Shown: positions 1-17,681, numbered from the stretch's first letter. The stretch is DNA of 64,000 bases from Pseudomonadota bacterium (GCA_026388315.1 JAPLKA010000053.1:1-64000); one strand, 5' to 3'. Numbers and translations: made by a program. The notes: generated from the letters alone by a model not told the origin.

Positions 1-410
1 CATTTCTTCACGTTATCAACATATTGAAACCAATGAAGACTTCAACCGTCACAAATACAAATCTCTACATATCAGGTCCTTGCCTGGATTCGTTGATAAC
101 TGAATGAAATGATCAAAGTCTTGACAGCGTGTTTTCTGTTCCTTTAGATTCCGGGCTTCTTCCTGTAACAAAGCATGGGGCATTTTTGTCGAATGGGCTA
201 TATTTCATTTGGCAATCAATACTCACATCGAGAATATTTCAGCTTTGATCCGTCGTTCCTGTAAATAATAAGCTTTAATGTTATGCAGCAAGCAATATAA
301 CATAATGATTTTAGGATTTTAATACTTGCCAATCCCTGTTGTGGTGCCCATATCCTACAGATATCATTCGTTTTATTTTCATAAGTTTTTATATAAGAAC
401 GTCATTGCCC
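1..410. other. Non-coding left edge of the window
   Basis: I see no convincing gene, RNA or repeat in this AT-rich stretch. It precedes the first integron-type cassette and could be the place where an integrase or attI site has decayed, but no integrase coding sequence is visible on either strand. Confidence 0.4.
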
Positions 411-440
411 TTGACAATACCGTCTGATAATCATAATAAT
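411..440 (+). promoter_or_regulatory. Sigma70-type promoter ahead of the first cassette
   Basis: TTGACA at 411-416 is followed after 18 bp by AATAAT at 435-440. It points into the cassette array, where an integron Pc promoter is expected. The next gene starts about 50 bp further on. Confidence 0.5.
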
Positions 441-469
441 TTAGAAATTATTGGTAGCAGCATATTAAT

Positions 470-476
470 TGTTATG
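470..476 (+). other. Upstream recombination point of cassette 1 (GTTATGA)
   Basis: GTTATGA is a GTTRRRY-type core site. It is the exact reverse complement of TCATAAC, the R'' box of the attC at the end of this cassette (1111-1117). That is what a circular cassette would require, because R' and R'' come from the two ends of the same cassette. No complete attC precedes it, so it may be the remains of attI or of an older attC. Confidence 0.55.
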
Positions 477-495
477 ACCAGACAAGGGAACGAAT

Positions 496-1098
496 ATGAA
501 AGCTCAATATGATCAGCTCATGAAGTCACTTGAAGACCTTCCCTTGAGCAAGGCTCTGCAAAAGACTCTTCGCGTCGGGCAAGAATTGAAAGACAATGAA
601 TTTGAAAAGTGGATTCGACTTGAACTCCATGGCTACTGGAATACCAATTCAGCGCTGAATGAAGATGTAGTGGTGCCTGAGTACCGAACTGTTGCTGGGT
701 ATTACACGGATGACTACGGAAGACAACATGTCTTTTCCGATTCCAATGCTGGTTTTATCAATGAAACACGCTTGAGATTCGGGGTGATTGAGATGGAGGG
801 AATGATCGGAGCAAAAGGCCCTTTAGCTTTCCGCGCCCCACAATTTGCCGAGATCATTCGCAACGAACTTGGGGCAGAGGTAACCACTTTCAATTTTAGT
901 CCAAAAACAGTTCCTGCTGTTTTGGAAGCCATTCGTACTGAACTCTCTGACCGTCTCATGTCAAGAAAAGACAAAATTCAGGAACAAGACCTTGAGACCC
1001 AAGGATCAAGAACGGAAGACGTGATTCAACTAAAACCCAATTTCTACGGCATAGGCGTCGATCTAAAAGCACTTTGGAGGAAGTTCAAGAAGTCATAA
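496..1098 (+). CDS. AbiTii-domain-like protein (cassette 1)
   Basis: This 200-residue soluble protein has at residues 10-47 the pattern of the AbiTii domain: a leucine-rich stretch, 'SKALQKTL', then 'DNEFEKWIRLELHGY', matching the family theme of 'LS.AL.KAL..A..L...E...W...ELNGY'. AbiTii domains occur in abortive-infection and other phage-defence proteins; the molecular action is unknown. The rest of the protein has no recognisable domain. The gene fills a cassette bounded by the core site at 470 and the attC at 1111-1174, the compact form expected of an integron cassette. Assignment rests on the N-terminal pattern only. Confidence 0.55.
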   Translation: MKAQYDQLMKSLEDLPLSKALQKTLRVGQELKDNEFEKWIRLELHGYWNTNSALNEDVVVPEYRTVAGYYTDDYGRQHVFSDSNAGFINETRLRFGVIEMEGMIGAKGPLAFRAPQFAEIIRNELGAEVTTFNFSPKTVPAVLEAIRTELSDRLMSRKDKIQEQDLETQGSRTEDVIQLKPNFYGIGVDLKALWRKFKKS

Positions 1099-1110
1099 AA
1101 GGGAGTGAAG

Positions 1111-1174
1111 TCATAACATACGACTCAGCTAACTCGGCCATAAAGCGGCCTCGTAGCTGAGCCGTATGTTATGC
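1111..1174 (+). repeat. attC recombination site 1
   Basis: The R'' box TCATAAC (1111-1117) and R' box GTTATGC (1168-1174) bracket an imperfect palindrome whose arms pair almost perfectly (CATAACATACG / CGTATGTTATG and CTCAGCTA / TAGCTGAG) with a few unpaired bases, as in integron 59-base elements. It lies 12 bp after the stop codon of the gene upstream. Confidence 0.8.
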
Positions 1175-1187
1175 TTTGAAATGAATA

Positions 1188-1217
1188 TTGACTGACATAT
1201 TTAAAGTACGTTATAAT
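1188..1217 (+). promoter_or_regulatory. Promoter and likely operator of the cassette toxin-antitoxin pair
   Basis: TTGACT (1188-1193), 18 bp, TATAAT (1212-1217). The -10 box is embedded in a direct repeat, GTACGTTA twice (1206 and 1218), a plausible binding site for the antitoxin. Having its own promoter is typical of toxin-antitoxin cassettes. Confidence 0.6.
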
Positions 1218-1242
1218 GTACGTTAATTATGTGAGGTGTCAT

Positions 1243-1524
1243 ATGAAAAGAGTTAGAGTCAACGAAGATATCAGACCAATGTCTGAGTTTCGCACCGGTA
1301 TTGCTTCCTTCCTTAAACAAATACACGACACTAAACGTCCCATGATCATCACGCAACACGGCAAAGGAGTTGCCGTTCTGCTCGATGCGGGCGAGTATGA
1401 GGCAATGCAGGAGAGGATAGAGTTGCTGCAGGACATACAGACATCCATCGGTCAGATTGAAGCTGGTCAGGGAGTGGATCATGACCAGGCCAAAAGGACT
1501 GTATTAAACCGGATCAGGAAATGA
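1243..1524 (+). CDS. Phd/YefM-type antitoxin (cassette 2)
   Basis: The 93-residue protein fits the Phd/YefM antitoxin fold: an N-terminal DNA-binding part ('VNEDIRPMSEFRTGIASFLKQ', of which 'RPMSEFR' is the usual core), then 'RPMIITQHGKGVAVLLDAGEYE', the classic strand-helix of the family, and a C-terminal tail that would wrap the toxin. I prefer the ATG at 1243 over the in-frame start at 1216 because GAGGTG lies just before it. The stop overlaps the toxin start in an ATGA, so the two are translationally coupled. It should neutralise the toxin and repress the promoter at 1188-1217. Confidence 0.85.
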   Translation: MKRVRVNEDIRPMSEFRTGIASFLKQIHDTKRPMIITQHGKGVAVLLDAGEYEAMQERIELLQDIQTSIGQIEAGQGVDHDQAKRTVLNRIRK

Positions 1525-1817
1525 AAATTATCTGGTCTCCTCTCGCAATAGACAGAGTATCAGAGATAGCCACATACATCGCCCAAGAGAATCCCGCTGC
1601 TGCAGAAAAGTGGGTGGACACGGTTTTTCGGAAGGTGGAAGACCTACAGAACTTCCCTGAAAGTGGCAGGGTCGTACCTGAAACCGAAATAAAAACCATA
1701 AGAGAGCTGATATACGGAAACTACCGACTGATTTACCGGCTTGAAGAGAAGAGGATTTCAGTGCTCACTGTTCGGCACGGAAAGCAGATCTTGCCGGTTG
1801 ATGAAATTACGGCATAA
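1521..1817 (+). CDS. RelE/ParE-family toxin (cassette 2)
   Basis: A 98-residue RelE/ParE-superfamily toxin: 'WSPLAIDRVSEIATYIAQENPAAA' helical start, 'FPESGRVVPE' and 'RELIYGNYRLIYRLEE' strands, and a C-terminal 'VLTVRHGKQILP'. The sequence is closer to ParE (gyrase poison) than to RelE (mRNA cleavage), but the target cannot be decided from sequence alone. It overlaps the antitoxin by 4 bp, and its stop codon overlaps the R'' box of the following attC (1812). Toxin-antitoxin cassettes are common in large integrons and are thought to stabilise arrays. Confidence 0.85.
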   Translation: MKIIWSPLAIDRVSEIATYIAQENPAAAEKWVDTVFRKVEDLQNFPESGRVVPETEIKTIRELIYGNYRLIYRLEEKRISVLTVRHGKQILPVDEITA

Positions 1818-1872
1818 CCAGTCGTTGCACCAAATCCGCGCCATGCGCGTCTCGGTGAACTTTTCGTTATGG
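1812..1872 (+). repeat. attC recombination site 2
   Basis: R'' GCATAAC (1812-1818) and R' GTTATGG (1866-1872) lie 61 bp apart end to end, with inner arms GTTGCACC / GGTGAAC and a GC-rich hairpin loop (GCGCCATGCGC). R'' is the reverse complement of the GTTATGC that opens this cassette at 1168, as expected. Confidence 0.75.
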
Positions 1873-3334
1873 TGCCATATCTAGTAGACAACAAAATTGG
1901 GGGTGTTGATTGAAAATTGAATCAATGGGGTTGATTGACTTCAAGCCGATTAAAAATCTGAGCCTGCGGAATTTAGGCAGCGCAGTTGTAATTGCTGGTG
2001 CGAATGGTTCTGGGAAGACCAGATTGAAGATGGCAATTGTGCAGACCCTACAGGGTGTTCCAGTTATGGACATGACGATTCTTGCCACTCGTGATGAGGA
2101 GAGAGAAGAAAAATATTTCAACGCAAGCAAGATTGAAATTAAGAAGGGTGTTCAGAATCCGGTTCTTAATAATTATATAAACAGTAGAAAGTACGGATCG
2201 GGAAAATATGTTGGATCGCTTGTGCAGATTGATTCAGATAGAAGTGTGCAGACCCTTAAATATGGTCAAGTCAATTGGCTGGGTGGAGACCCTGATGATT
2301 TAGATTCGCCAAGTAATTTCTATTTCAATACTTTCACGAATAGATGGCAGGAGTTTGTTACCTACATCCACCAAAAGTCTGCGGCTAGAGATAAGAAACT
2401 CGCGGAAGCCATGAAGGAAACCCCCGACCTTCTTGGAAGCGAAATCTTAAAAAAGCACCCAGATCCGTTTTTGAAATACAAAGAGATATTCACGTCAATC
2501 CTACCCGATAAGACACTGCTGGACATTACCCCGGCTTCTCCTGGAGAGTTTAAATATTCAGACGAATCAGGGCAGCCGTTGCCATTTTCATCCCTTAGTT
2601 CTGGTGAGCAAGAAGTAATAAAAGTCCTCTTTGACGTTGCAAGAAAAGATATTCGACATTCAGTGATAATTGTAGATGAGCCAGAATTGCATCTACATCC
2701 CACGTTGACGTTCAAACTCATTGAAACATTGAAAACCATTGGGGATCATACAAATCAGTTTATATTTCTAACGCATTCTCCCGATCTCATTTCCACCTAC
2801 TATTCAACTGGCGATGTCTACTTTATTGATCAGAAGGATAATGGCGGGAATCAGGCGCATAGGCTTAGTGATCTAGATCACGAGCACAAAGAAGTTGCTT
2901 TGCTTGTTGGTCAAAATCTAGGCATGTTCGCCGTAGGCAAAAAACTGGTGTTTGTAGAGGGGGAAAAATCTAGCATTGATCGTCTTTCCTATCAGAAGAT
3001 TGCGCTGACAATTGATCCGGAAATTAGAGTTCTTCCAGCAGGTTCTGTACTCAACATTATGACGCTCAATAATATTGAAGAGCAGATTAGAAAGGCAATA
3101 TTTGGAATTGATCTTTACATGATTAGAGATCGTGACGGCTTGAGTGATGAGCAAGTTTCAGTTCTGGAAAAGAACGGCAGGATCAAATGCCTTAAACGAA
3201 GGCACGTTGAAAACTACTTTTTAGATGATGAAGTCCTGTTCATGGTCGCCCAGCGACTGTATCTGATAGAGGGGAACCCCTCTCTAACCAGGGAATACAT
3301 TGCCGAGTCAACGAAGAAGATCGCAGAAAACTCA

Positions 3335-4417
3335 CTAGTGTAGTGTCTCAATAATGGCTTTACAATGATTCACTTTTTTAATAATCTCCTCCGCCTTTTT
3401 GGTCCAGACAAAAGGTTGGGGGTCCTCGTTATTGTAGCGTATGTATTCTTCTATGGCAATTACCAATTCCGGTACGCTTTTGAAGACTCCCCGGCGTATC
3501 CTTTTTCTCGTAATTTCCCCGAACCAGCGCTCTACCAGATTCAGCCATGATGAACTTGTAGGCGTGAAGTGGAGAACAAAACGGGGGTGTTTTTCGAGCC
3601 ACACCTTTACATTCGGGTGATTATGTGTTCCGTAGTTGTCCAGAATCAGATGGATATCCAAACCTTTAGGCACTTCCCGGTTAATCCTACGCATGAATTT
3701 CAAAAATTCAGTGTTCCTGTGCCGGGGATAACAGGAGCCGATGACCTTTCCCTCCAGAACATTCAGAGCGGCAAAAAGACAGGTGGTACCGTTCCGCTTG
3801 TAATCATGTGTCATCGTTCCACAGCGTCCTTTCTTCATTGGTAACCCCGGCTGTGTTCTGTCTAAGGCCTGAACCTGAGACTTTTCATCTACACAGAGCA
3901 CTACTGCTTTATCCGGTGGATTTAAGTAGACACCCACCACATCGGTCAGTTTTTCCACGAACCGCTTGTCTTTGGACAACTTGAAGGTTTCCACGCGATG
4001 CGGTTGCAATCCGTGGGCATCCCAGATACGCTGTACAGTCGTATGACTAACACCTTGTACTTTCGCCATCGTTCTCGTTGACCAGTGAGTCGAGTCTTTC
4101 GGGGTGGTATGCAGGGTGGCTTCCACAATGACATGAACTTTCTCTGGATCGAGCCGTCTTGAACTTATACCGTGGGGCGCATCTTCTGACAACCCTGAGG
4201 CGCCCTGTTCACGGAAACGGTTTGTCCACAAAATAACCGTTGGTCGAGAGGTCTCCAGTCTTTTGGCAATAGCGTTATGCGATATGCCTTCTGCCGCAAG
4301 CAAGCAGATACGGGAACGCAGGACCACTCTTTGAGGCGTCTTCTTCGCCCGAATCCAGGCTTCCAATACTTTTCGCTGTTCTTCCGTCATGATCAGTTTA
4401 TCGGCTGGTTTCCACAT
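3335..4417 (-). CDS. IS630-family transposase
   Basis: The 360-residue protein has an N-terminal helix-turn-helix region ('GISHNAIAKRLETSRPTVILW') and a DDE core: Asp in 'VLCVDEKSQ', Asp in 'LILDNYGTH' and Glu in 'SSWLNLVERWF', the hallmark of the IS630/Tc1-mariner superfamily. All catalytic residues are present, so it may be active. The stop codon TAG is made of the duplicated TA target plus the flanking base, so the exact C-terminus depends on the insertion site. It is transcribed against the gene it interrupts. Confidence 0.92.
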   Translation of the reverse strand: MWKPADKLIMTEEQRKVLEAWIRAKKTPQRVVLRSRICLLAAEGISHNAIAKRLETSRPTVILWTNRFREQGASGLSEDAPHGISSRRLDPEKVHVIVEATLHTTPKDSTHWSTRTMAKVQGVSHTTVQRIWDAHGLQPHRVETFKLSKDKRFVEKLTDVVGVYLNPPDKAVVLCVDEKSQVQALDRTQPGLPMKKGRCGTMTHDYKRNGTTCLFAALNVLEGKVIGSCYPRHRNTEFLKFMRRINREVPKGLDIHLILDNYGTHNHPNVKVWLEKHPRFVLHFTPTSSSWLNLVERWFGEITRKRIRRGVFKSVPELVIAIEEYIRYNNEDPQPFVWTKKAEEIIKKVNHCKAIIETLH

Positions 4418-4472
4418 GAAGAATTATAGCACAGCCAATGGTTATTGTAAACATAATACTGTTACACTACAC
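3338..4472 (-). mobile_element. IS630-family insertion sequence
   Basis: The element is 1135 bp, bounded by imperfect inverted repeats of about 30 bp that start GTGTAGTGT and share TTTACAAT further in. It is flanked by TA on both sides (3336-3337 and 4473-4474), the target duplication expected of this family. It carries one transposase gene and sits inside the ATPase-nuclease cassette gene. Confidence 0.9.
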
Positions 4473-4868
4473 TAGGATTTAACGTCTATAAGAATGTTAA
4501 GGATTATTTGAGCTTTAATCATTTTTTGCGATCTCCAACGGTTAAGTGCCTTGAAGCAAAGACGATAGATACGATTAAGGAGGAGATAGTAGCTTCGATC
4601 ACGTTAAACAGAAACGCCCTCGATAATGACATCAGCGATGAAGCCATCCGAGCTTGGGTAAGTGCAGAAGAATATAGGCTGAAAGAAAAACTGCTCAACG
4701 GGGGATGGCTCAATGACTTTCAAGGTAAATACATTTTTAGCCGGATATGCGGTGAAATCTTGAAGGCCGATCAGATCAGAGTACGTCATGCATACGTTGA
4801 TATTGCGCTGGCCGAAAAATCCAGTGTGCTTGCAGAGATAACGGAAATGTTTAAGGGGATGTGATGTT

Positions 4869-4930
4869 GCATAACGAATCGTTTCAGCGGACGCGCAAAA
4901 AGCCACGCGCCGCTGAACTCAAAGTTATGC
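4869..4930 (+). repeat. attC recombination site 3
   Basis: R'' GCATAAC (4869-4875) and R' GTTATGC (4924-4930) enclose the arms TTCAGCGG / CCGCTGAA and a GCGCG-containing apical hairpin; 62 bp in all. This is a textbook 59-base element, 4 bp after the stop of the split ATPase gene. Confidence 0.85.
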
Positions 4931-4953
4931 ATAAAGAACTCGGAGATTAATGA

Positions 4954-5772
4954 ATGAACATTATGGAAAACTTCTACCAAATAGCCTTCATTTTACTTAC
5001 TTCAGTGGGCGGCGCAGTGATAATAATAGCAGCTTTATCAACTTGGCTGGGGAAAGTATGGGCCAATAGAATTCTGGAATCAGACAAGGCTAAGTACACT
5101 CAAGAATTAGACAAAATTCGTCATCAGTTTCAAATCGAGTTTGATCAGCTATCTATTATCCACGAAAATCAAAAGTCTAGTTTTCAGCGCATGATCAAAG
5201 AATTGCACAAATCAATTAAATCTCTGGAACAAGCATATGATGAAGCTTGGCAACCCATAAGTGATAAACATTATGATGCATTAAAAGAAGTAATTATCGA
5301 AGAGTCTCTTTTTTTAGGTGCGGAAGGCGAAAAGGCCTTAAACATCTATCTAGATTTTTTGGGGAAAGCTGTATATTTCCCCGAAGATGAATCACAAGAT
5401 GATAAAACACTTAGAAACATATATGAATTTCTAAATTTTATGTCAGAAAGAATACGCGAATATTTCAGGAAAAGGATTGGTCTTTCCTCAGAAGCTAACC
5501 CACTTCTAGACATAAACTTAATTGCAGCTTGCATCTTAGTTAATGGTGTTCATTTCACAGGTACTAATTTCCCGACCAATCAAATCCTCCTATTCCAATA
5601 CGACATTTCTCCTTCATCGTTCGTCGAAAAGCTAAAGGAGAACATGAGTGCATTAAAGTCAGAACTGAACACACTCATCTCATGCATTGAGTCAGATCGT
5701 GACGAAGGTAAATACTCTTTTAGAGTTTTATCTGAAGCTCGTTACTATCTGAATTTATTTAACGAAGCATAA
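4954..5772 (+). CDS. Membrane-anchored coiled-coil protein of unknown function (cassette 4)
   Basis: I do not recognise this 272-residue protein. Residues 8-35 form one transmembrane helix ('IAFILLTSVGGAVIIIAAL'), followed by a long charged, probably coiled-coil segment (about 40-95) and a helical soluble domain in which 'FVNG'-like hydrophobic patches alternate with acidic stretches. The topology (single N-terminal helix, cytoplasmic helical body) resembles several orphan cassette and defence-associated membrane proteins, but there is no catalytic motif. GGAG at 4942-4945 supports the ATG at 4954. It fills the cassette between attC3 and attC4. Confidence 0.7.
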   Translation: MNIMENFYQIAFILLTSVGGAVIIIAALSTWLGKVWANRILESDKAKYTQELDKIRHQFQIEFDQLSIIHENQKSSFQRMIKELHKSIKSLEQAYDEAWQPISDKHYDALKEVIIEESLFLGAEGEKALNIYLDFLGKAVYFPEDESQDDKTLRNIYEFLNFMSERIREYFRKRIGLSSEANPLLDINLIAACILVNGVHFTGTNFPTNQILLFQYDISPSSFVEKLKENMSALKSELNTLISCIESDRDEGKYSFRVLSEARYYLNLFNEA

Positions 5773-5823
5773 CAAAAGCAATACAGCCGATCGCTAACAC
5801 TCCGGCTGATTTTTTCGTTATGC
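5767..5823 (+). repeat. attC recombination site 4 (end of array)
   Basis: R'' GCATAAC (5767-5773) overlaps the stop codon of the previous gene; R' GTTATGC is at 5817-5823; the inner arms are CAGCCG / CGGCTG. No further attC follows, and the next genes are on the opposite strand, so the cassette array ends here. Confidence 0.8.
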
Positions 5824-5864
5824 TTCGTTTCAATCGGTAATCCTTAGCATTTTATTTAACTGAA

Positions 5865-5948
5865 TCTATTTAGTTGTAGGTGCACAAAATAATTGGTAAT
5901 ATTAACTTTCTCACTGGTCATTTCTGCGCATTACCAAGTAAAAGATGC
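5865..5948 (+). repeat. Diverged ~80-bp repeat, copy 1
   Basis: TTAGTTGTAGGTG, then AAATAA, GGTAA, TCAT and TGC-CATT occur in the same order and spacing at 10629-10712. The two copies lie in direct orientation either side of the MazEF-like pair and sensor kinase. The nature of the repeat is unknown. Confidence 0.45.
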
Positions 5949-6105: not shown

Positions 6106-6432
6106 TCACAGCGATAGCACTTGGCGCAGACCCTCTTCTATTTTTTCGAGATCGCCCGGTTTTAAGCTTCCCGCCTTTTGATGGAGTCTGCTTTTGTCTA
6201 TCGCGCGAAGTTGATCACATACCGCCACAACGTTCCGCCTGAGACATTCTACTTCAATGACCAGTGGGGGCCTTGGTGTGCCAGACGAAGAGAGGGGAAG
6301 TACGAGAACAGTTCTCCTGGCATCGTTAATGGGGGTAGCACCGATGAGAACACAGGGCCTTTGTTTTTTGATCTCTGAGCCTACCGCAGGGTCGAGATTC
6401 ACCCAGTAGATGTCACCACGCTTCAGGCTCAA
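6106..6432 (-). CDS. MazF/PemK-family toxin
   Basis: The core 'KRGDIYWVNLDPAVGSEIKKQRP' is the MazF signature (the Gly-Asp loop and the 'GSE..K.RPC' strand), followed by 'VLVLPLSS' and 'CDQLRAIDKSRL', which carry the usual RNA-binding residues. MazF proteins are sequence-specific mRNA interferases. I place the start at the TTG at 6432 because AGGAG lies six bases upstream; the longer frame to 6471 has no ribosome site. That gives 108 residues, the normal family length. It overlaps the antitoxin gene by 20 bp. Confidence 0.85.
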   Translation of the reverse strand: MSLKRGDIYWVNLDPAVGSEIKKQRPCVLIGATPINDARRTVLVLPLSSSGTPRPPLVIEVECLRRNVVAVCDQLRAIDKSRLHQKAGSLKPGDLEKIEEGLRQVLSL

Positions 6433-6646
6433 TGCCGTCTCCTGCAGTAACATCCCACGCCACCATGTCATTGTTTAATGCTTCATCCTTTTCAACTGCC
6501 AGGGCGCATTGAAAGAGCGCTTCTTCCCTGCGGCCGACCTCCTGTTCCAGGAGATCCATGACAACCTGACTCCGTTTTCTCGCCGGTATAACTGTTCTCA
6601 TACGTTTAATAAGGTCATTCGGCAGGGATACGAGTATTTTTTCCAT
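6413..6646 (-). CDS. Ribbon-helix-helix antitoxin paired with MazF-like toxin
   Basis: A 77-residue protein beginning 'MEKILVSLPNDLIKRM', typical of ribbon-helix-helix DNA-binding proteins, with 'KRSQVVMDLLEQEV' forming the second helix and an acidic C-terminal tail ending 'GIEPEAW' that would occupy the toxin groove. The ATG at 6646 has GGAG six bases upstream; the longer frame to 6700 runs across the promoter and is not credible. It precedes and overlaps the toxin gene, the standard antitoxin-first order, and should autorepress the promoter at 6659-6700. Confidence 0.8.
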   Translation of the reverse strand: MEKILVSLPNDLIKRMRTVIPARKRSQVVMDLLEQEVGRREEALFQCALAVEKDEALNNDMVAWDVTAGDGIEPEAW

Positions 6647-6658
6647 AACAACTCCTTT

Positions 6659-6700: not shown

Positions 6701-7180
6701 CTACTATTTTGAACCAGTGGGTGCGAGCATACAGAAAAAAGCGTTTTTGCCCCAGCCCCAACATTTGTGCCACCAAGTGCGAATGAGTCCTTTTTTACCA
6801 CACCTCTCCGTTGAGCGCTCCTTCCTGAAATCCACACACACGGCCTTTTCAGTGTCATAGCGGCTTTCATGCGGTAATTAATGATCTGAAATGAACATTT
6901 CTTTAATTCACAAGGATATTATGCGATAATGATAATGAAGCACAACATGTGGTGCAAGATATGATCATGCTGGATTACAACAGAGGTGAGGTTTTTGTGT
7001 GGAGCAGGCGGAACATAAACCCAATCACAAACGAAAAGAAGGGTAGATGGAGAAGAAGTGTAAATAATGCGCTATGATGATGCCGAAAGAAAGAAAAGGA
7101 ATAAAACAAACGAATATAGTAAGAATTAACCGCTATTTTAATGTGAAAAATCTGAGCTACGTCTTTTCCGGGAGACCATC
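6701..7180. other. Non-coding region upstream of the sensor kinase
   Basis: I see no gene here. It must contain the control region of the sensor kinase, but I cannot identify a convincing promoter pair. A ribosome site GGGAGA lies just before the kinase start. Confidence 0.35.
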
Positions 7181-10100
7181 ATGAGCACCTCACCATCTGC
7201 CAACGCCGCCGGAACCAGCATTACATCCACTTTATTGCATACCATGCAATCCTCTCGATCGAACAGACGCATTGCTTGGATCGTGCTGCTGGTTGGTCTG
7301 ATGATTACCGCCATTGCAGCCTTGTACATGAAATCGAGCGTGGAAAGGATTGCGGAGCGTGATTTCACCTTTCAGTGCAACGAGATTCAAAATAAAATTA
7401 CAGAAAGACTTGATGACCATGCTCGTATCCTGCAGAGCGGTGCGGCGTTATTTAAGGTATCAGAAATGGTCACGCGCGAAAAATGGCATATTTTTACCCA
7501 ACACCAGAAGTTTGAGAAACAACTTCCCGGTATTCAGGGCATTGGTTTCTCGCTTCTGGTTCCGCGTGAAGATCTCACCCGACACGTTCAGGAAATACGC
7601 CGTGAAGGTTTCCCGGAGTACAAGCTGAAGCCGGATGGTAATCGTGAAGTTTATTCCTCCATCATCTATCTGGAGCCATTTTCCGGTCGCAACCTGCGGG
7701 CCTTTGGCTATGACATGTTCTCGGAACCGGTGCGCCGGTCAGCAATGGAACGGGCGCGGGATACGGATATGGCTGCGCTCTCCGGCAAAGTTACTTTGGT
7801 TCAGGAAGCCGGCGCCGAAGTTCAGGCAGGCACCCTGATGTATTTTCCGGTCTACCGCAAAGGCATGCCCATCGAAACGGTAGAACAGCGGCGTGCGGCA
7901 ATCTATGGATGGATCTACAGTCCCTACCGGATGAATGACCTGATGCAGGGAATACTTGGTGCCCGCAATCCGGAGAAAGAAAAACAGCTTTATCTTCAGG
8001 TCTTCGATGGTGCGCAGCCTTCTCCTCAAAGTCTGCTCTATGAAAGTCATCCTGCGGGGGCCAAGAAGCTCCGGCCCGAAGAGCGCTTTACCCGACAGAT
8101 TCCAGTTGATTTCAATGGTCAACACTGGACACTGCGCTTTACACAAACCGGCGGCGGACTCTTCGCGGCAGCTTACATAAGCGTATGGCTCACCATTCTC
8201 GGCGGTATGCTCATCACGTTGCTGCTGTCCGCCCTGATCCGTACTCTGCTGAACACCCGTGCCGAAGCGCAGCGTATAGCGGAGAACTTGACTGAGGAGT
8301 TGAGGGAGAGTGAGGAAAAATACCGCGTCATTTTCAACAACGAGATATACGCAATCTGTATCTTTGATCTTGAAACGCTCGCACTGCTCGACGTAAATGA
8401 TGCCTTCTCTCGTTTATACGGTTATGGCCGGGAAGAACTCATTTCCGGGATGACAATCCACGATATTACGGCGGAGCATAAAGTATCCGATGCAGCGACC
8501 AGACAGGCCGTCCGTGAGGGTACAATCTTTATTCCTCTGAGGTATCATCGGAAGAAAGATGGCACAGTATTCCCGGTCGAAATTGTTGGCGGCCCTTATT
8601 CGTGGATGGGGCGCAAGGTAATGTTTGCCCTTGCACATGATATTACCGAGCGCAAACGAATGGAAGATGCGCTGCTGAATAGCAAACAGCAATACGACAA
8701 CTTGGTCTCCAACGTCCCTGTGGGTGTTTACATTATGCGCAGTACACCGATTGGGGCCTTCGCATTCGAATACGTTAGCCCTCGGGTGGCGGAAATATTT
8801 AATGTGAGCGCTGAAAACTTTCTGGCAGACCCACAAGCCGGATTCCAACCGATACATCCGGATGATCTGGACGCTCTTGTGAAATTAAATCAGGAGCGAT
8901 TTCGACAACCGCAGCCATTCAATTGGGAAGGACGGGCTATAGTCAATGGAGCGGTTAAGTGGCTCAGCATCGCATCTTCTCCCGAACTGCTGGAAAATGG
9001 AGACGTATTGTGGCATGGGGTCATCGCTGACATCACCGAGGACAAGCGGACGGAAGAGGCTTTGCGGGAGAACGAAGCCCGGGCTAAGGCGATGTTTCAG
9101 GCCATTCCCGATTTGATGTTCCGTATGGATAGTCAGGGCGTTTTTCTGGACTACAAGGCAGACATCAGCGATCTTTATGCCCAATCCGAGCCAACCCTTG
9201 TCGGCAAACGCAACCGAGATATTACCCCGCCCGAATTTGCCGATTTAATTGACCGGAAAATCCGCGCTACATTAGAGACCGGTAGACTGCAAAGCTTTGA
9301 ATATCAGCTGCCCATTCTGGACCGGGGCATGCGGTACTATGAGGCACGCATGGTTGCCAGTGGTGCAGCCGAAGTGACTGCAATCGTGCGCGACATTACT
9401 GAGCACAAACGGACCGAAGAAGAGCTGCTCCGTACTCAAAAGCTGGAATCACTCGGCATCCTCGCTGGCGGCATTGCCCATGACTTCAACAATCTTATGA
9501 CGGTTGTCCTGGGGAATGTTCAACTGGCGATGATGGGACTACCGTCGAATCATACATCATACCCTCTCCTTCAGGCTGTTTTGCAATCTGCCGAACAGAC
9601 CAGGGATCTTACCAGCCGTCTCATCACCTTCTCAAAAGGAGGCTTTCCCATTAAGCAGATAAGTGATGTTTCGGGAGTCCTTCAGGAAGTAGTACGGAAG
9701 ATGGTCAGAAAAACTGGTGTCCGAGCCGCCTTCGACATTGAAAAAGACCTCTGGTCTGCTAAAGTGGATGAAAACCAGATAAGGCAGGTCTTTTATAACC
9801 TTACCATGAATGCCGTTGAAGCCATGCCCGAAGGAGGAACCCTCACGATACAGGCACAAAATACAAAAGTACACTCTTCAGACGGTCTCCCGTTAAAGGA
9901 AGGATCCCACCTCAGAATAACCTTTGCCGATAACGGTACGGGGATTGCCGAAGAAAACCTTGTCCTTATCTTTGATCCCTATTTTACAACAAAAGGTATG
10001 GGTAATCAGAAGGGGATGGGATTGGGCCTGTCAGTCTGTTATTCAGTGCTCAAGAAACACGATGGTCATATTGCTGTCACGTCTCGGCCGGGGGAAGGAA

Positions 10101-10907: not shown

Positions 10908-10973
10908 TTGCATATGCAGAAACAATGAATATTTCAAATAAAATTGTGGACTAAATTGATGAGAGAATAATTG

Positions 10974-12449
10974 ATGACAAAAAAGGAACTTGAAACCTAC
11001 CTGTGGGATGCAGCCAATATTCTTCGTGGAATGATTGATGCTGCTGACTTTAAACAATATATTTTCCCTCTGCTGTTTTTTAAGCGTATTAGCGATGTAT
11101 GGGATGAGGAATATCAAATAGCTCTGAAAGAAAGCGAAAATGACCTCGACTATGCCGAGTTCCGTGAAAACCACCGGTTTCAGATACCAAAGGGTTGCCG
11201 TTGGGAAGATGTACGCAAGAAAACCGTTGATGTTGGCGCTGCTTTACAAAACGCATTGAACGGAATTGAAAAAGCCAATTTTGAAATGCTCCATGATGTT
11301 TTCGGTGATGCACAGTGGACGAATAAGCGCCGGATGAGCGATGAAAAGATGCTCGACCTTATTGAACATTTCAGCCGGATGGATTTAACTGTCAGCAATG
11401 TCCCTCACGACATCATGGGCGAAGGCTACGAATATCTTATAAAGAAATTTGCAGATGACAGCGGCCACACCGCAGCCGAGTTTTACACGAATCGTACCGT
11501 TGTAAAACTCATGACAGAGATTACCGACCCACAGCCTGGTGAGAGCATTGATGACCCTACGTGCGGAAGCGGGGGTATTTTGCTCTCAAGTGTTCTGCAT
11601 GTAAAAGAACAGGGAAAAGAATACCGGACATTAAAACTGTACGGACAGGAACTGAACCTGATGACCTCTGCAATTGCTCGTATCAATATGTTTATGCACA
11701 ATGTTGATGAATTTTTAATTGTGCAGGGTGATACCCTTGATAACCCGCAGATACTTGAAAATGATGAGCTGAAGCAGTTTGACGTAATCATGGCAAATCC
11801 GCCATACAGTGTTAAACGCTGGAATCAGCAAAAGTGGATGAACGACCCTTTTGGCCGCAATATCTGGGGAACACCACCGCAAGGCTGTGCTGATTATGCT
11901 TTTCAGCAGCATATAATGAAAAGCCTTAATCCCGTTACCGGCAGAAGCGTGGTTCTCTGGCCGCATGGCGTTTTGTTTAGAGATGCCGAAAGTGGTATAC
12001 GCAAGAAAATGATTGAGGAAGATTATGTTGATGCGGTGATTGGCTTGGGGAAAAACCTGTTTTACAACAGCAGTATGGAAAGTTGCTTGCTGGTATGCAG
12101 AATGAAAAAGCCTCCCGAGAGAAGAGGTAAAATAATTTTCATTGATGCCAAAGAGGAATTGCGGATTGAAAGAACCAATGCCTGGCTGGAACCTCAACAC
12201 ATTAAAAAGATTGCCGGTGCCTACTGGAAATTTGAAGATGCCGAAGGCTTTGCAAAAGTGGTGAGCAATAAGGACGTGCTGGAAAACAACGGCAATTTAA
12301 GCGTTCAATTGTATGTGAAGAAGGCGGAAATTGCGAACGAGCACGATACCAAAGATTTGATTGCGAAAGTCAAGAAAGGGCAAATGCAAATCAATGCTTC
12401 ACTGGATGAGCTTTTCCTGAAACTGAAAGATATCGGGATAGAAGTATGA
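10974..12449 (+). CDS. hsdM: Type I restriction-modification DNA methyltransferase subunit
   Basis: HsdM transfers methyl from S-adenosylmethionine to adenine N6 within the site chosen by HsdS. An N-terminal helical HsdM_N domain ('LWDAANILRGMIDAADFKQYIFPLLFFKRISD') is followed by the catalytic domain with motif I 'DPTCGSGGIL' and motif IV 'NPPY'. 491 residues is normal for the family. I start at the ATG at 10974, one codon after the TTG, because of the GAGAG upstream. It opens a four-gene operon in which every junction is an ATGA overlap. Confidence 0.95.
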   Translation: MTKKELETYLWDAANILRGMIDAADFKQYIFPLLFFKRISDVWDEEYQIALKESENDLDYAEFRENHRFQIPKGCRWEDVRKKTVDVGAALQNALNGIEKANFEMLHDVFGDAQWTNKRRMSDEKMLDLIEHFSRMDLTVSNVPHDIMGEGYEYLIKKFADDSGHTAAEFYTNRTVVKLMTEITDPQPGESIDDPTCGSGGILLSSVLHVKEQGKEYRTLKLYGQELNLMTSAIARINMFMHNVDEFLIVQGDTLDNPQILENDELKQFDVIMANPPYSVKRWNQQKWMNDPFGRNIWGTPPQGCADYAFQQHIMKSLNPVTGRSVVLWPHGVLFRDAESGIRKKMIEEDYVDAVIGLGKNLFYNSSMESCLLVCRMKKPPERRGKIIFIDAKEELRIERTNAWLEPQHIKKIAGAYWKFEDAEGFAKVVSNKDVLENNGNLSVQLYVKKAEIANEHDTKDLIAKVKKGQMQINASLDELFLKLKDIGIEV

Positions 12450-13525
12450 ATGAAAAGTTGACGACCAACAACCTCTATTCAAAAATTGCCGAACTCTTAA
12501 AGGCTGCAAAGCAGACGGTTGCGCGTGCTGTAAATCAAACCATGGTCTACACTTATTTTGAAATTGGCAGGATGATTGTTGAAGACGAACAACAAGGAAA
12601 ACAACGGGCTGCATATGGCAAGCAGGTATTGAAAGAGCTTTCAATGCGGCTTACAATAGATTTTGGCAAGGGATTTTCAGTTGAAAACCTTGATAGGATG
12701 CGTTTTTTCTATCAAGTATACTCTAAATCAATTTCGTCAACAGCGTTGACGAAATTTGGTGAAGGCGATATGCCCTCAGCATCTTTGCAGAAATCAGAGG
12801 GGTCAGCCGAACCGCAAACACCCCATTTTCGATTATCATGGTCGCACTACCTCAAACTTATGCGGATTGAGAACCCTGATGAACGTAACTTCTACGAAAT
12901 AGAATGTACTGCTAATAACTGGAGCTTGAAAGAACTGCAACGGCAATTTGACAGCGCATTGTATGAACGCCTGGCCTTGAGCAGGGACAAAGAAGGCATT
13001 AAGCAATTGGCGCAAAAGGGACATCTTATTGAAAACCCTTCTGATGCAATAAAAGATCCTTATATTTTAGAATTTCTTGGATTGCCCGAACATCACCATT
13101 ATTCCGAAACTGTTTTAGAACAGGAAATATTCAATAAGTTAGAGCATTTTCTGCTTGAACTCGGTAAGGGCTTTACTTTTGTCGGCAGGCAGGTTCGTTT
13201 TACTTTTGATGAAAAACATTTTCGTGTTGATCTTGTGTTTTATAACAGACTTTTAAAATGCTTTGTTCTGATTGATTTGAAAATCGGCGAGATTACTCAT
13301 CAGGACCTTGGGCAAATGCAGATGTATGTTAATTATTATGACCGTTTTGTAAGGCTGCCCGATGAAAACAAAACCATCGGCATTATCCTGTGCAAAGACA
13401 AAAGCCAGACATTAGTAGAAATAACCCTTCCGGAAGATAATGACCAGATATTCGCCAGCCGCTACCAAACCATATTGCCGGATAAGCAAGCATTTATTGA
13501 GCTTTTGAATGAAGGTGAAGCATGA
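12446..13525 (+). CDS. YhcG/DUF1016-family PD-(D/E)XK nuclease
   Basis: The 359-residue protein has the N-terminal DUF1016 helical domain (about 10-150, with 'VYTYFEIGRMIVEDEQQGKQRAAYG') and a C-terminal PDDEXK nuclease domain (about 195-345): 'FTFDEKHFRVDLVFYNRLLKCFVLIDLKIG' gives D-(x)n-(D/E)xK. Proteins of this family often sit inside type I restriction operons; their exact role is unsettled. The gene lies between hsdM and hsdS with 4-bp overlaps on both sides, so it is made with the complex. The hinge (about residues 95-130) is low-complexity and its DNA holds a perfect 12-bp inverted repeat. Confidence 0.85.
   Translation: MNEKLTTNNLYSKIAELLKAAKQTVARAVNQTMVYTYFEIGRMIVEDEQQGKQRAAYGKQVLKELSMRLTIDFGKGFSVENLDRMRFFYQVYSKSISSTALTKFGEGDMPSASLQKSEGSAEPQTPHFRLSWSHYLKLMRIENPDERNFYEIECTANNWSLKELQRQFDSALYERLALSRDKEGIKQLAQKGHLIENPSDAIKDPYILEFLGLPEHHHYSETVLEQEIFNKLEHFLLELGKGFTFVGRQVRFTFDEKHFRVDLVFYNRLLKCFVLIDLKIGEITHQDLGQMQMYVNYYDRFVRLPDENKTIGIILCKDKSQTLVEITLPEDNDQIFASRYQTILPDKQAFIELLNEGEA
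12730..12756. repeat. Perfect 12-bp inverted repeat inside the YhcG-family gene
   Basis: AATTTCGTCAAC and GTTGACGAAATT are separated by AGC. It encodes part of the serine/threonine-rich hinge between the two domains and would form a strong hairpin in the mRNA. Confidence 0.8.
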
Positions 13526-14703
13526 AGTTGAGGAAAGAGGAATGGAAAGAAGTTAAGATTGAACAAATTTGTGAGTTTGTAAGAGGACCATTTGGCGGCT
13601 CCTTAAAAAAAGAAATATTTGTAAAAGAAGGTTATGCTATTTACGAACAACAGCATGCGATTAATAATCAGTTTAATACTTTTCGATATTTCATTGATGA
13701 AAATAAATTCAATGAAATGAAAAGATTCCAAGTTTTAGAAGGCGATATTATCATGAGTTGTTCAGGGACTTTTGGTAAGATTGCTATTATTCCAAAAAAT
13801 ACAAGAAATGGAATTATTAATCAGGCGTTACTTAAACTCCGCTGTAAAAATGAACTTAATAATTCCTTTTTCCAAATTTGGCTTAATAGCCAAAGCTTTC
13901 AAAAAGAGGTTAATTCAAGTGTTCAAGGAACTGCGATAAAAAACATTGCATCAATTGCATTTTATAAACAAATTCAAATCCAGCTCCCGCCTCTCGAAGA
14001 GCAAAAACAAATCGCCGCCCTTTTTCAATCCATAGAAACCGCTATTGAGCAGGTGGAGGGACAGGAGAAGAAGTTAAACACGTTGCAAAAAACATTAAGT
14101 AATGGCTTGGTAAGCAAATCACCTGTTTGGGGGAATTTACTTTCAGATAAAAACTGTAATCTCTGCACGTTTGAGGATATAACTGATTGTATAGAAGAGC
14201 ACGATAAGAAGCCATTGAAAAGTGGAATTACCCGCTTTGTTGGCTTAGAATTTATTGAAGCAGAAAACTTCAATTTGCAAGGTTTTGGGGATATCGAAAA
14301 AGGCACAACCTTCACAAAGCGCTTCTCAAAAGGCGATGTATTATTTGGCAAACGCAGAGCCTATTTAAAGAAAGTTGCAGTTGCCGACTTTGATGGTATT
14401 TGTTCCAGTGACATTTTGGTTTTTAGAGCAAATAAAACAAAGATGTTGCCTGAATTATTGCCTTACTATGTTTCCTCGGAAACCTTCATAAATCATGCGG
14501 TCAGCACATCGGCAGGTTCTCTTTCACCAAGAACAAAATGGAACGATTTATCAGTCTTGGAAGTATCCATCCCCGACTTAAAAGCCCAAGAAAAGATTGT
14601 GGAAGTATTCCAGCAGTTACAACTAACACTGGATCAACTCAAACAGCAAAAAACAACTCTCAAAAACCTGAAACAAAAACTACTAAGCGAGATTTTAGGA
14701 TGA
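13522..14703 (+). CDS. hsdS: Type I restriction-modification specificity subunit
   Basis: HsdS chooses the bipartite DNA target for HsdM and HsdR. The 393 residues form two target-recognition domains (about 1-150 and 200-350), each followed by a coiled-coil spacer: 'LPPLEEQKQIAALFQSIETA' after the first and 'IPDLKAQEKIVEVFQQLQLT' after the second. This is the normal layout. The spacing helices are repeated in sequence, as usual for HsdS. The start overlaps the nuclease stop and the stop overlaps the hsdR start. Confidence 0.93.
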   Translation: MKLRKEEWKEVKIEQICEFVRGPFGGSLKKEIFVKEGYAIYEQQHAINNQFNTFRYFIDENKFNEMKRFQVLEGDIIMSCSGTFGKIAIIPKNTRNGIINQALLKLRCKNELNNSFFQIWLNSQSFQKEVNSSVQGTAIKNIASIAFYKQIQIQLPPLEEQKQIAALFQSIETAIEQVEGQEKKLNTLQKTLSNGLVSKSPVWGNLLSDKNCNLCTFEDITDCIEEHDKKPLKSGITRFVGLEFIEAENFNLQGFGDIEKGTTFTKRFSKGDVLFGKRRAYLKKVAVADFDGICSSDILVFRANKTKMLPELLPYYVSSETFINHAVSTSAGSLSPRTKWNDLSVLEVSIPDLKAQEKIVEVFQQLQLTLDQLKQQKTTLKNLKQKLLSEILG

Positions 14704-17681
14704 GTACATTTAGCGAACTTAACAGCGTAGAATATTTCATTATCCGCCAGCTTACCGGCATTAACCTGAATCAGGTTCAGCATGGTATGGTAAAGGAAGA
14801 CATTGTACCTTATAGCGAGAAGGCACAATGGAAATATGTCCAACCTGAATTGCTTTCAAGGGAAATTACCGATGTTTTTCTGGAAAAGGAATTAAAGGAA
14901 TCCCTGATCCGCCTCAATCCCGCAATAAAATCAAACCCTGAACGGGCCGAGGAAGTAATTCACAAACTTCGGGCTATTCTCATTGCTGTTGGCAATGTTG
15001 GCCTTGTACGGGCTAATGAAGAATTTGCTAAATGGTTACGGGAAGAAATCTCCATGCCTTTTGGCAAAAATAATGCACATGTAAATATTCGGCTGATAGA
15101 CTTTGAACAAATAGACAACAACTCTTTTTTGCTTACCAACCAATTTAAAATCAGAACCAGAGAAACAAAAATCCCCGACATTGTAATGTTTGTTAATGGT
15201 ATTCCGCTTGTTGTCGGTGAAACCAAAACACCGGTTCGACCGGCAATTAGCTGGTTGGATGGCGCACATGATATCCATGTCATTTATGAAAATGCGGTGC
15301 CTCAGCTTTTTGTACCAAACGTGCTCTCTTTTGCGACAGAGGGTAAAGAACTTTTTATTGGCGGAGTAAGAACACCGTTAGAATTATGGTCTCCCTGGCG
15401 GCTTGAGGATGAAAAAGATGAGATACATCATTTTGCCGGATTGCAGGATGTAGCCAAACAGATAACTCATTTGCTAAAACCTTCTACCTTGCTGGATATA
15501 TTACAATACTTCACCATTTACGCCACAAACAGCAAAAAGAAAAAAATAAAAGTCGTCTGTCGTTATCAGCACTACGAAGGCGCCAATACCATTGTTGAAC
15601 GAGTTAAAGAAGGTAAAATAAAGAAAGGTTTAATCTGGCATTTTCAAGGTTCCGGCAAATCATTGTTGATGCTGTTTGCCGCTCAAAAAATGCGAAAACA
15701 ACAGGAGCTTGGAAATCCCACTGTTATTATAGTGGTTGACAGAGTTGACCTCGACACGCAAATTACTGCAACTTTTAACACTGCCGAAGTTCCGAATATG
15801 GTAACAACCGACAATATTAAAGAACTGCATGACCTGTTGGAAAAAGATACCAGAAAAATCATCATCACCATGATTCATAAATTTAAAGATGCGTATCCTG
15901 ATATGAACAAGCGGGAAAATCTCATAGTGATGGTCGATGAGGCTCACAGAACGCAAGAAGGGGACCTTGGCCGCAAAATGAGAAACGCATTACCCAACGC
16001 CTTTCTTTTTGGGTTAACCGGAACGCCAATCAATAGAGCCGACAAAAATACTTTCTGGGCATTTGGAGCGGAAGAGGATAAGAACGGCTACCTGAGCCGA
16101 TATACTTTTCAAGATAGTATTCGTGACAACGCCACACTCCCTTTGCATTTTGAACCACGCTTGCCCGATTACCATATTGATAAAGAGAGCCTCGATATCG
16201 CTTTTAAAGAAATGGCAAACGACCTGAGCGAAGAAGACCAGAACAAACTCAGCCAAAAAGCCGCACAGATGGCTGTTTTTTTGAAGGCTCCGGAACGAGT
16301 GAAGACCATAGTTCAGGATATAGTGGAGCATTTTCAAAAGCATGTGGAGCCGGAAGGTTTTAAAGCAATGATTGTAACCCCTGACCGCTATGCCTGCGTC
16401 CAGTACAAAGAGGAACTGGACAAATTACTTTCCCCTGAATCCAGTATCGTTGTTATGAGCACTTCCGCCAATGATGATTTTGAGTTCAAGCAAAAGTTCG
16501 CAATGGACAGAAACCAGCAGGAAAAAGTAATTGAAAAATATAATAATTCAGATTCTCCGCTTAATTTCCTTATTGTCACTGCGAAACTACTAACAGGTTT
16601 TGATTCGCCCATTTTGCAAACGATATATCTGGATAAATCACTTAAAGACCATACGCTGCTGCAAGCAATTTGCCGAACAAACAGACTCTTTCCAAATAAA
16701 ACATTTGGACGAATAGTTGATTATTTTGGTGTTTTTGATGATACTGCGAGCGCCCTGGCATTCGATGAAGAATCGTTAAAAAAGGTCATCAGTAATCTTC
16801 AGGAACTAAGAAACAAACTACCCGAACAAATGACGCTTTGCTTATCTCATTTTGCGGGTTTAGATAGAACCATTGAGGGTTTTGAAGGCTTGCAAGCTGC
16901 ACAGGATTGTATTAGTTCAAACGAAAAAAAAGACGCTTTCGCAAAAGATTTTAGTTTATTATCAAGACTGTGGGAAGCACTTTCTCCAGATGACGTATTA
17001 AAAAATTATCAAAAGGATTACAAATGGCTTTCACAGGTTTACACCTCGGTTAAACCAGGTCCCGATGATAACGGAAGATTATTATGGCACGCTTTAGGCG
17101 CACAAACTACGGCACTTATCCATGAGCATATCCATGTTGACGGCATTACCCACGATATGGAAGAAATGGTTTTAGATGCCGATGTAATCGACAACTTAAT
17201 GAATAATAAAGACCCGAAAGATGCAGATAGAATTATTAAAATATTATCAGGTAGGCTGGGTATAAATAAAGGCAACCCAATTTTCAAAAAGTTAAGTGAA
17301 CGACTTGAAGCATTGAGAGACAAGGCCGAAAAAGGTTTAATCAACAGCATTGAATTTATTAAACAACTTTGCGAAATTGCAAAAGAAACTTTGCAGGCTG
17401 AAAAACAAAAAGATAGCGGCGAAAAGCAAAAATCAGCAAAAGCGGCATTAACGGAATTATTCCTTGAACTTAAAACAGATAAAACACCGGCCATAGTTGA
17501 AAGAATAGTAAACGACATTGATGAGATTGTTCGTTTAGTCCGCTTTGACGGTTGGCAAAATACTATACCCGGTGAAAGAGAAGTTCAAAGAGCATTACGC
17601 AAAACATTGTTGAAATATCAATTACACAAAGAAGAAGAACTGTTTAATAAATCGTACGAGTATATTAAGGAATATTACTGA
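14700..17681 (+). CDS. hsdR: Type I restriction enzyme, motor/nuclease subunit
   Basis: HsdR translocates DNA using ATP and cleaves it. The N-terminal nuclease domain has the PD-(D/E)XK pattern ('KIPDIVMFVNGIPLVVGETKTP'); the SF2 helicase part has Walker A 'FQGSGKSLL', 'MVDEAHRTQ' (DEAH box), 'LFGLTGTP' and the arginine-finger region 'QAICRTNRLFP'. I choose ATG 14700, which overlaps the hsdS stop (ATGA); a longer in-frame reading from 14538 lies wholly inside hsdS. This gives 993 residues, normal for the family. All four operon genes look intact. Confidence 0.95.
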   Translation: MSTFSELNSVEYFIIRQLTGINLNQVQHGMVKEDIVPYSEKAQWKYVQPELLSREITDVFLEKELKESLIRLNPAIKSNPERAEEVIHKLRAILIAVGNVGLVRANEEFAKWLREEISMPFGKNNAHVNIRLIDFEQIDNNSFLLTNQFKIRTRETKIPDIVMFVNGIPLVVGETKTPVRPAISWLDGAHDIHVIYENAVPQLFVPNVLSFATEGKELFIGGVRTPLELWSPWRLEDEKDEIHHFAGLQDVAKQITHLLKPSTLLDILQYFTIYATNSKKKKIKVVCRYQHYEGANTIVERVKEGKIKKGLIWHFQGSGKSLLMLFAAQKMRKQQELGNPTVIIVVDRVDLDTQITATFNTAEVPNMVTTDNIKELHDLLEKDTRKIIITMIHKFKDAYPDMNKRENLIVMVDEAHRTQEGDLGRKMRNALPNAFLFGLTGTPINRADKNTFWAFGAEEDKNGYLSRYTFQDSIRDNATLPLHFEPRLPDYHIDKESLDIAFKEMANDLSEEDQNKLSQKAAQMAVFLKAPERVKTIVQDIVEHFQKHVEPEGFKAMIVTPDRYACVQYKEELDKLLSPESSIVVMSTSANDDFEFKQKFAMDRNQQEKVIEKYNNSDSPLNFLIVTAKLLTGFDSPILQTIYLDKSLKDHTLLQAICRTNRLFPNKTFGRIVDYFGVFDDTASALAFDEESLKKVISNLQELRNKLPEQMTLCLSHFAGLDRTIEGFEGLQAAQDCISSNEKKDAFAKDFSLLSRLWEALSPDDVLKNYQKDYKWLSQVYTSVKPGPDDNGRLLWHALGAQTTALIHEHIHVDGITHDMEEMVLDADVIDNLMNNKDPKDADRIIKILSGRLGINKGNPIFKKLSERLEALRDKAEKGLINSIEFIKQLCEIAKETLQAEKQKDSGEKQKSAKAALTELFLELKTDKTPAIVERIVNDIDEIVRLVRFDGWQNTIPGEREVQRALRKTLLKYQLHKEEELFNKSYEYIKEYY

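Follow-up and report, generated by a model that had tools for sequence, protein, structure and literature searches.

When a cassette array stands in a genome with no integrase beside it, is it debris, or part of an integron that can still work? Integrase-less arrays are common and are usually taken for decayed or misplaced debris. We address the question for an array in a Pseudomonadota bacterium (GCA_026388315.1), using as our window a stretch of 64,000 nucleotides, bases 1–64000 of contig C53 (70,647 bp; JAPLKA010000053.1), from a genome of 3.80 Mb in 131 contigs. The array consists of a leader followed by four cassettes, all in one orientation. We consider it quite probable that this is a sedentary integron that lost its adjacent integrase gene (intI), with its attI site and cassette promoter (Pc) left in place. 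The original prediction of an array without an integrase holds insofar as no intI adjoins it. It falls short in that an intact intI lies elsewhere in the genome, on contig C46, and in that the array is more than a plain cluster of attC sites lacking an integron-integrase (CALIN, as defined by IntegronFinder; PMC9024848), because a putative attI/promoter leader is retained at its head. The host is a sediment bacterium; this kind of leader is also borne by relatives, metagenome-assembled genomes that carry the labels Syntrophus sp., uncultured delta proteobacterium and Proteobacteria bacterium; Syntrophus is placed in the Syntrophales, Thermodesulfobacteriota.

Leader and attC sites

Rfam gave no match within the window, so we built our own attC covariance model (R1), trained on 13 attC sites, all from other genomes of the phylum. 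The parts of the array are as follows.

155–471, + strand: conserved non-coding leader (Pc-attI-like), ending at the recombination point G471^T472; identified by blastn copies and motif copies
411–440, + strand: predicted sigma-70 promoter TTGACA-18-AATAAT, candidate Pc; 11/12 consensus matches, surroundings of the -10 conserved in aligned leaders
437–477, + strand: attI-like core ending ..GGTAGCAGCATATTAATTG^TTATGA; identity profile of 16 leaders
472–1168, + strand: cassette 1, between recombination points; opening core GTTATGA, the exact reverse complement of R'' TCATAAC
1111–1174, + strand: attC 1; R1 20.9 bits, E 3.6e-3 on both strands, bottom-strand fold z -8.8
1169–1866, + strand: cassette 2, between recombination points; R'' GCATAAC, the reverse complement of opening core GTTATGC
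1812–1872, + strand: attC 2; R1 36.0 bits, E 2.7e-7
1867–4924, + strand: cassette 3, enlarged by an IS630 insertion; core and attC matches, R'' GCATAAC one base off opening core GTTATGG
4869–4930, + strand: attC 3; R1 43.6 bits, E 2.3e-9
4925–5817, + strand: cassette 4, between recombination points; R'' GCATAAC, the reverse complement of opening core GTTATGC
5767–5823, + strand: attC 4; R1 40.9 bits, E 1.2e-8
5822–5885, + strand: conserved sequence of ~60 bp straight after the last core, the right end of the array; copies elsewhere

The four attC sites are real. Over the whole 64-kb window R1 finds exactly these four places and no others, and it rejects none of them (E 2.3e-9 to 3.6e-3). A scan for paired R boxes and for L boxes with a bulged base, which together with the covariance model replaced early folding-based scans that were too strict or too permissive, likewise scores only these four at 13.15 or above among sites of up to 75 nt; order-2 Markov shuffles yield 0.08 sites at that score per 64 kb. 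Each R'' agrees with the core opening its own cassette in 7, 7, 6 and 7 of 7 bases for cassettes 1 to 4, and the extrahelical base in L'' is present in three of the four sites, attC 1 being without it. The sites, the pairing (exact in cassettes 1, 2 and 4, one base off in cassette 3) and the judgement that chance could hardly have produced them had all been proposed from inspection of the sequence, and all are borne out. The low score of attC 1 (20.9 bits on both strands) might be taken to favor chance hairpins lying in a coincidental gene order; with E values down to 2.3e-9, only four sites in 64 kb, one orientation and matching R'' and core in each cassette, that explanation is already refuted and its probability practically nil.

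The leader is not peculiar to this locus. A DNA search with window positions 1–475 returned copies that stop at 469–474, both in the same genome (C75 and C9, 76%–80% identity) and in five relatives (G286, G224, G152, G300 and G308; 75%–79%, in pieces). Aligned, the leaders are non-coding and combine a TTGACA-17/18-TAATA-like promoter with a closing segment AAATTATAGSTWGCAGCAKATTAATTG^TT. Searching by motif gave 15 exact copies, spread over 6 of the family's 39 genomes; the 395 genomes of the phylum had none outside the family, and the reversed-pattern control gave 0. Mean pairwise identity among 16 leaders is 0.70–0.93 over the 40 nt leading up to the cut and 0.28–0.31 from 8 nt past it; these values are inflated over TTGACA and the last ~15 nt, which the search pattern contained, and the BLAST alignments behind that pattern are free of such a constraint. 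The seven bases after the cut fit GTTRRRY at 5–7 of 7 positions in all 16 leaders, and attC sites follow downstream in 8 of the 14 with usable downstream sequence. Weak C-terminal recombinase fragments were also seen 4–8 kb downstream of two leaders (L178, L172).

In two relatives a leader of this kind lies next to intI. In one (G224 C45) the intI is broken and runs divergently from the leader, which lies immediately upstream; in the other (G125 C101) the divergent intI is intact, with a TTGACA..TATTAATTG^TT leader ~150 bp away. Because it sits between the cassette side and a divergent intI in both, we infer that the leader is the attI/Pc region of the family's integrons. Integrase genes in the opposite arrangement (G201, G097, G224 C53) also precede a ACTTAATTG^TT site. 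In G152, where a type IIG restriction enzyme also lies behind a leader, contig C242 has a leader with three cassettes behind it, after which comes a gene opening TTAGACC..ATAACACGATGAATCAG; in G308 (C23) that same gene lies directly behind the leader. By sequence, the two loci show one type of docking point, filled in the first and empty in the second.

Integrase supply and the origin of the array

The sole intact integron integrase of the genome is encoded on C46 (482 aa, 370 bits), divergent from an array that reaches the contig end and whose cassettes include Shedu SduA, PDC-S31, HEPN and HigBA. Genome-wide, ~35 attC matches fall on at least 17 contigs, and several leader arrays lack intI. 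Joining C75 to C109, which overlap where the leader lies, gives a further array of leader, cassettes and right end; this array and those of C9 and C13 are located in contig interiors, preceded by ordinary genes and with no full intI. Copies of the ~60-bp right-end sequence that are 95%–100% identical occur on C43 and C109 of the same genome, with weaker ones in G097 (C30) and G300 (C222). N-terminal fragments of a C46-type intI were found on C125 (L135:4342-4416), C128 (L136:8732-8857) and C105 (L139:251-505), all three of which have attI-like or attC sites as well. By their sequence these fragments are remnants of further integrons and show intI decay in the same genome.

Also present is an element of ~128 bp, highly palindromic and without an open reading frame (TTCTCCCGG..CCCCGA; RNA fold -83 kcal/mol), of which this genome has eight full copies (C46:4673-4805, 7934-8066 and 1955-2087; C54:68837; C84:9393; C105:35052; C125:26650; C128:20366). 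Each copy directly follows the G of an apparent attC or attI core. The element looks like a hyper-mobile non-coding cassette, with A replacing G at the cut, because its own R'' and R' boxes match. Elsewhere in the genome, C20 and C15 carry tandem tyrosine recombinase genes, possibly recombinase-in-trio-like elements.

Most likely, intI and a promoter-attI leader were arranged divergently in the ancestral integrons of the family, and several copies then lost intI, with promoter, attI and cassettes remaining. Transcription would start in the leader (TTGACA at 411), so that cassette 1 would be read first. Cassettes that follow the leader are probably transcribed to this day. The presence of the leader at the head of other cassette arrays, in this bacterium and its relatives, suggests that arrays of this kind can remain functional once intI is gone. 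IntI made elsewhere, for example the intact protein of C46, may act in trans on these sites or may have done so in the past. More speculatively, the genome might hold a distributed integron, in which one integrase fills and shuffles in trans a set of dispersed docking platforms without intI, each with a promoter and an attI-like site. We regard this extension as possible, if doubtful; were it true, the first cassettes of several arrays would be expressed at once.

Several observations weigh against a sedentary integron that lost its integrase gene. The search for intI, which gave no match in window positions 1–480 or in the rest of the window, is bounded on the left by the contig end. No intI above the cut-off was found in four of the six leader genomes, whose assemblies are incomplete. 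The attI-like sequence of C46, ..GAATAACTTG^TT, differs from the leader, which makes action in trans on the leader only a possibility. Part of the leader's apparent conservation is owed to the search pattern, as said above. Since 6 of the 14 usable leaders have no detectable attC behind them, the leader might in part be a general mobile promoter. Finally, attC 1 is atypical, a near-perfect palindrome that is the weakest of the four sites, and because it scores the same on either strand, strand choice may be poor there.

Two other origins were considered. If an IntI had placed cassettes off target at a native promoter (an attG-like G^TT site), the leader would be a repeated host or mobile promoter, which would accord with its dispersal among differing gene neighborhoods and with the leaders found ahead of genes without detectable attC (for example G224 C79, G152 C176 and G286 C156). 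However, the same leader type adjoins divergent intI in G224 and G125, cassette-type cores follow all leaders, and conservation stops exactly at the cut; insertion at attG in Escherichia coli is, moreover, reported to be broadly spread over many loci (PMC12444791). We think this origin unlikely. Also unlikely, in our view, is that the array belongs to the C46 integron, a superintegron split only by assembly gaps or rearrangement, with the leader as an internal promoter region. The C46 array does reach a contig end and C53 begins at one, in compatible orientation; attC 1 and attC 4 of the window share loop sequence with the C46 sites; and the opening 141 bp of C53 recur unchanged at the end of C39 and at the start of C32, the signature of an assembly repeat. 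Against this, the arrays of C9, C13 and C75+C109 are interior to their contigs and follow ordinary genes, without intI; leaders of this family occupy unrelated loci in other genera; and the attI region of C46 is unlike the leader. Taken as a simple continuation of C46, the window array has a fitting orientation, yet its leader and the other leader arrays speak against such a reading.

Cassette payload and surroundings

The sedentary integron that we favor carries the following genes in its cassettes.

496–1098, + strand: AbiTii-family protein, 200 aa (cassette 1); PF18864 51.6 bits (cut-off 27.6), PADLOC AbiTii 1.5e-16
1240–1524, + strand: Phd/YefM antitoxin (cassette 2); PF02604 8.8e-20
1521–1817, + strand: ParE/RelE-type toxin (cassette 2); PF05016 6.7e-20, TIGR02385 over its cut-off
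1910–3337, + strand: fused AriAB-like (PARIS) ATPase-nuclease gene, 5' part (cassette 3); PADLOC AriAB PDLC02981 9.2e-45
3338–4472, - strand: IS630-family insertion sequence of 1,135 bp; NF033545 2e-80, terminal inverted repeats
3335–4417, - strand: IS630 transposase open reading frame; NF033545 2e-80
4475–4864, + strand: AriAB-like gene, 3' part (cassette 3); PDLC02981 model positions 589–658, 2.9e-7, in frame with the 5' part
4954–5772, + strand: 272-aa protein with a hydrophobic N-terminal stretch and coiled-coil-like matches (cassette 4); no known family

Cassette 1 carries one gene only, where an AbiT system would also have the partner AbiTi. The gene had been thought likely to be an undescribed defence gene, and instead its product belongs to the described AbiTii family (Pfam E 1.7e-13, score above the gathering cut-off); among the 395 phylum genomes it has no other match. 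The likeness to AbiTii (PF18864) lies in scoring above the family cut-off; the differences are that it stands alone in an integron cassette and is known from sequence only. Cassette 2 holds a neighboring antitoxin and toxin of known families, a type II toxin-antitoxin pair (YefM/ParE).

The ATPase-nuclease gene of cassette 3 had been taken as intact. Its ABC-type AriA ATPase is fused to an AriB part, and residues 173–450 of the 5' part align to positions 263–534 of the PDLC02981 model, with AAA_21 and AAA_15 matches as well. Both halves fit the fused AriAB profile of PARIS collinearly; the difference is that here IS630 (3338–4472) splits the gene. TA target copies flank the insertion (3336–3337 and 4473–4474), and the AriAB-like frame is continuous across the TA, yet the reading frame as it now stands is not intact. 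Because of this split the PARIS gene is presumably inactive.

For the cassette 4 protein a defence role, also proposed earlier, is unsupported: Pfam has nothing above cut-off, and the PADLOC defence profiles, against which a search had been suggested, give only a weak partial LeoBC match (6.6e-4). Comparison with PDB sequences gave only weak, coiled-coil-like matches. The protein has N-terminal relatives in three genomes (G191, G346, G126). Because those of two distant genomes, G346 and G126, sit among attC sites, it is placed by sequence in a cassette-borne family, as a membrane/coiled-coil orphan.

The description of the payload as defence-like therefore stands for cassettes 1–3, with their AbiTii, PhdYefM/ParE and AriAB matches, and not for cassette 4. 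Homologues of the four genes occurring together without attC would have told against a cassette origin. None were found: cassette 1 is unmatched in the phylum genomes, and two of the three relatives of cassette 4 lie among attC sites. The array is likely to hold a stock of phage-defence and array-stabilizing genes. For Vibrio, integrons were reportedly described in 2025 as stores of anti-phage genes, a picture to which this payload adds.

Several features of the window lie outside the array, whose first cassette is preceded by only 471 bp, the left end of C53 being window position 1. Positions 1–141, identical to the C39 end and the C32 start, mark an assembly branch, and on C39 a half attC-like sequence lies just before this shared stretch. 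A MazF/PemK-type toxin with a likely antitoxin upstream is encoded at 6106–6655 (- strand), and an intergenic repeat at 6816–6944 has 73%–80% copies in several contigs and in relatives. A type I restriction-modification locus with an inserted PDC-S02 (PD-DExK) gene occupies 10971–17681, 5 kb from the array.

Comparison with known integrons

Three routes to CALINs have been described, namely off-target insertion, loss of intI and rearrangement (PMC8618304), and CALINs at fixed loci are described in Xanthomonas (PMC12444791). In the open PMC literature we found no report of a multi-copy, conserved promoter-attI leader on intI-less arrays; subscription papers and preprints fell outside this search, and priority is unproven. 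The attI sites outside the well-known integron classes are poorly described (PMC9024848), and the leader offers a way to find them as well as a testable sequence signature for integrase-less platforms.

Sedentary chromosomal integrons of the Vibrio and Xanthomonas type share with the present array attC cassettes, an attI-like site, a Pc-like promoter and a payload of toxin-antitoxin and defence genes. They differ from it in that here there is no intI in cis, and several short arrays take the place of one large one. Loss of intI with attC cassettes left behind is known from Treponema phagedenis (PMC3607928), where the remaining cassettes are the point of likeness; attI was not analysed in that case, whereas here the leader persists and is common to several arrays. 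A CALIN resembles the array in having at least two attC sites and no neighboring intI, in a host genome that also has an intact intI with an array elsewhere. What sets the array apart from a CALIN is the putative attI/promoter leader kept at its head, which recurs at several arrays in one genome and across genera, mostly without intI close by, and which argues that some integrase-less arrays are maintained, expressed platforms.

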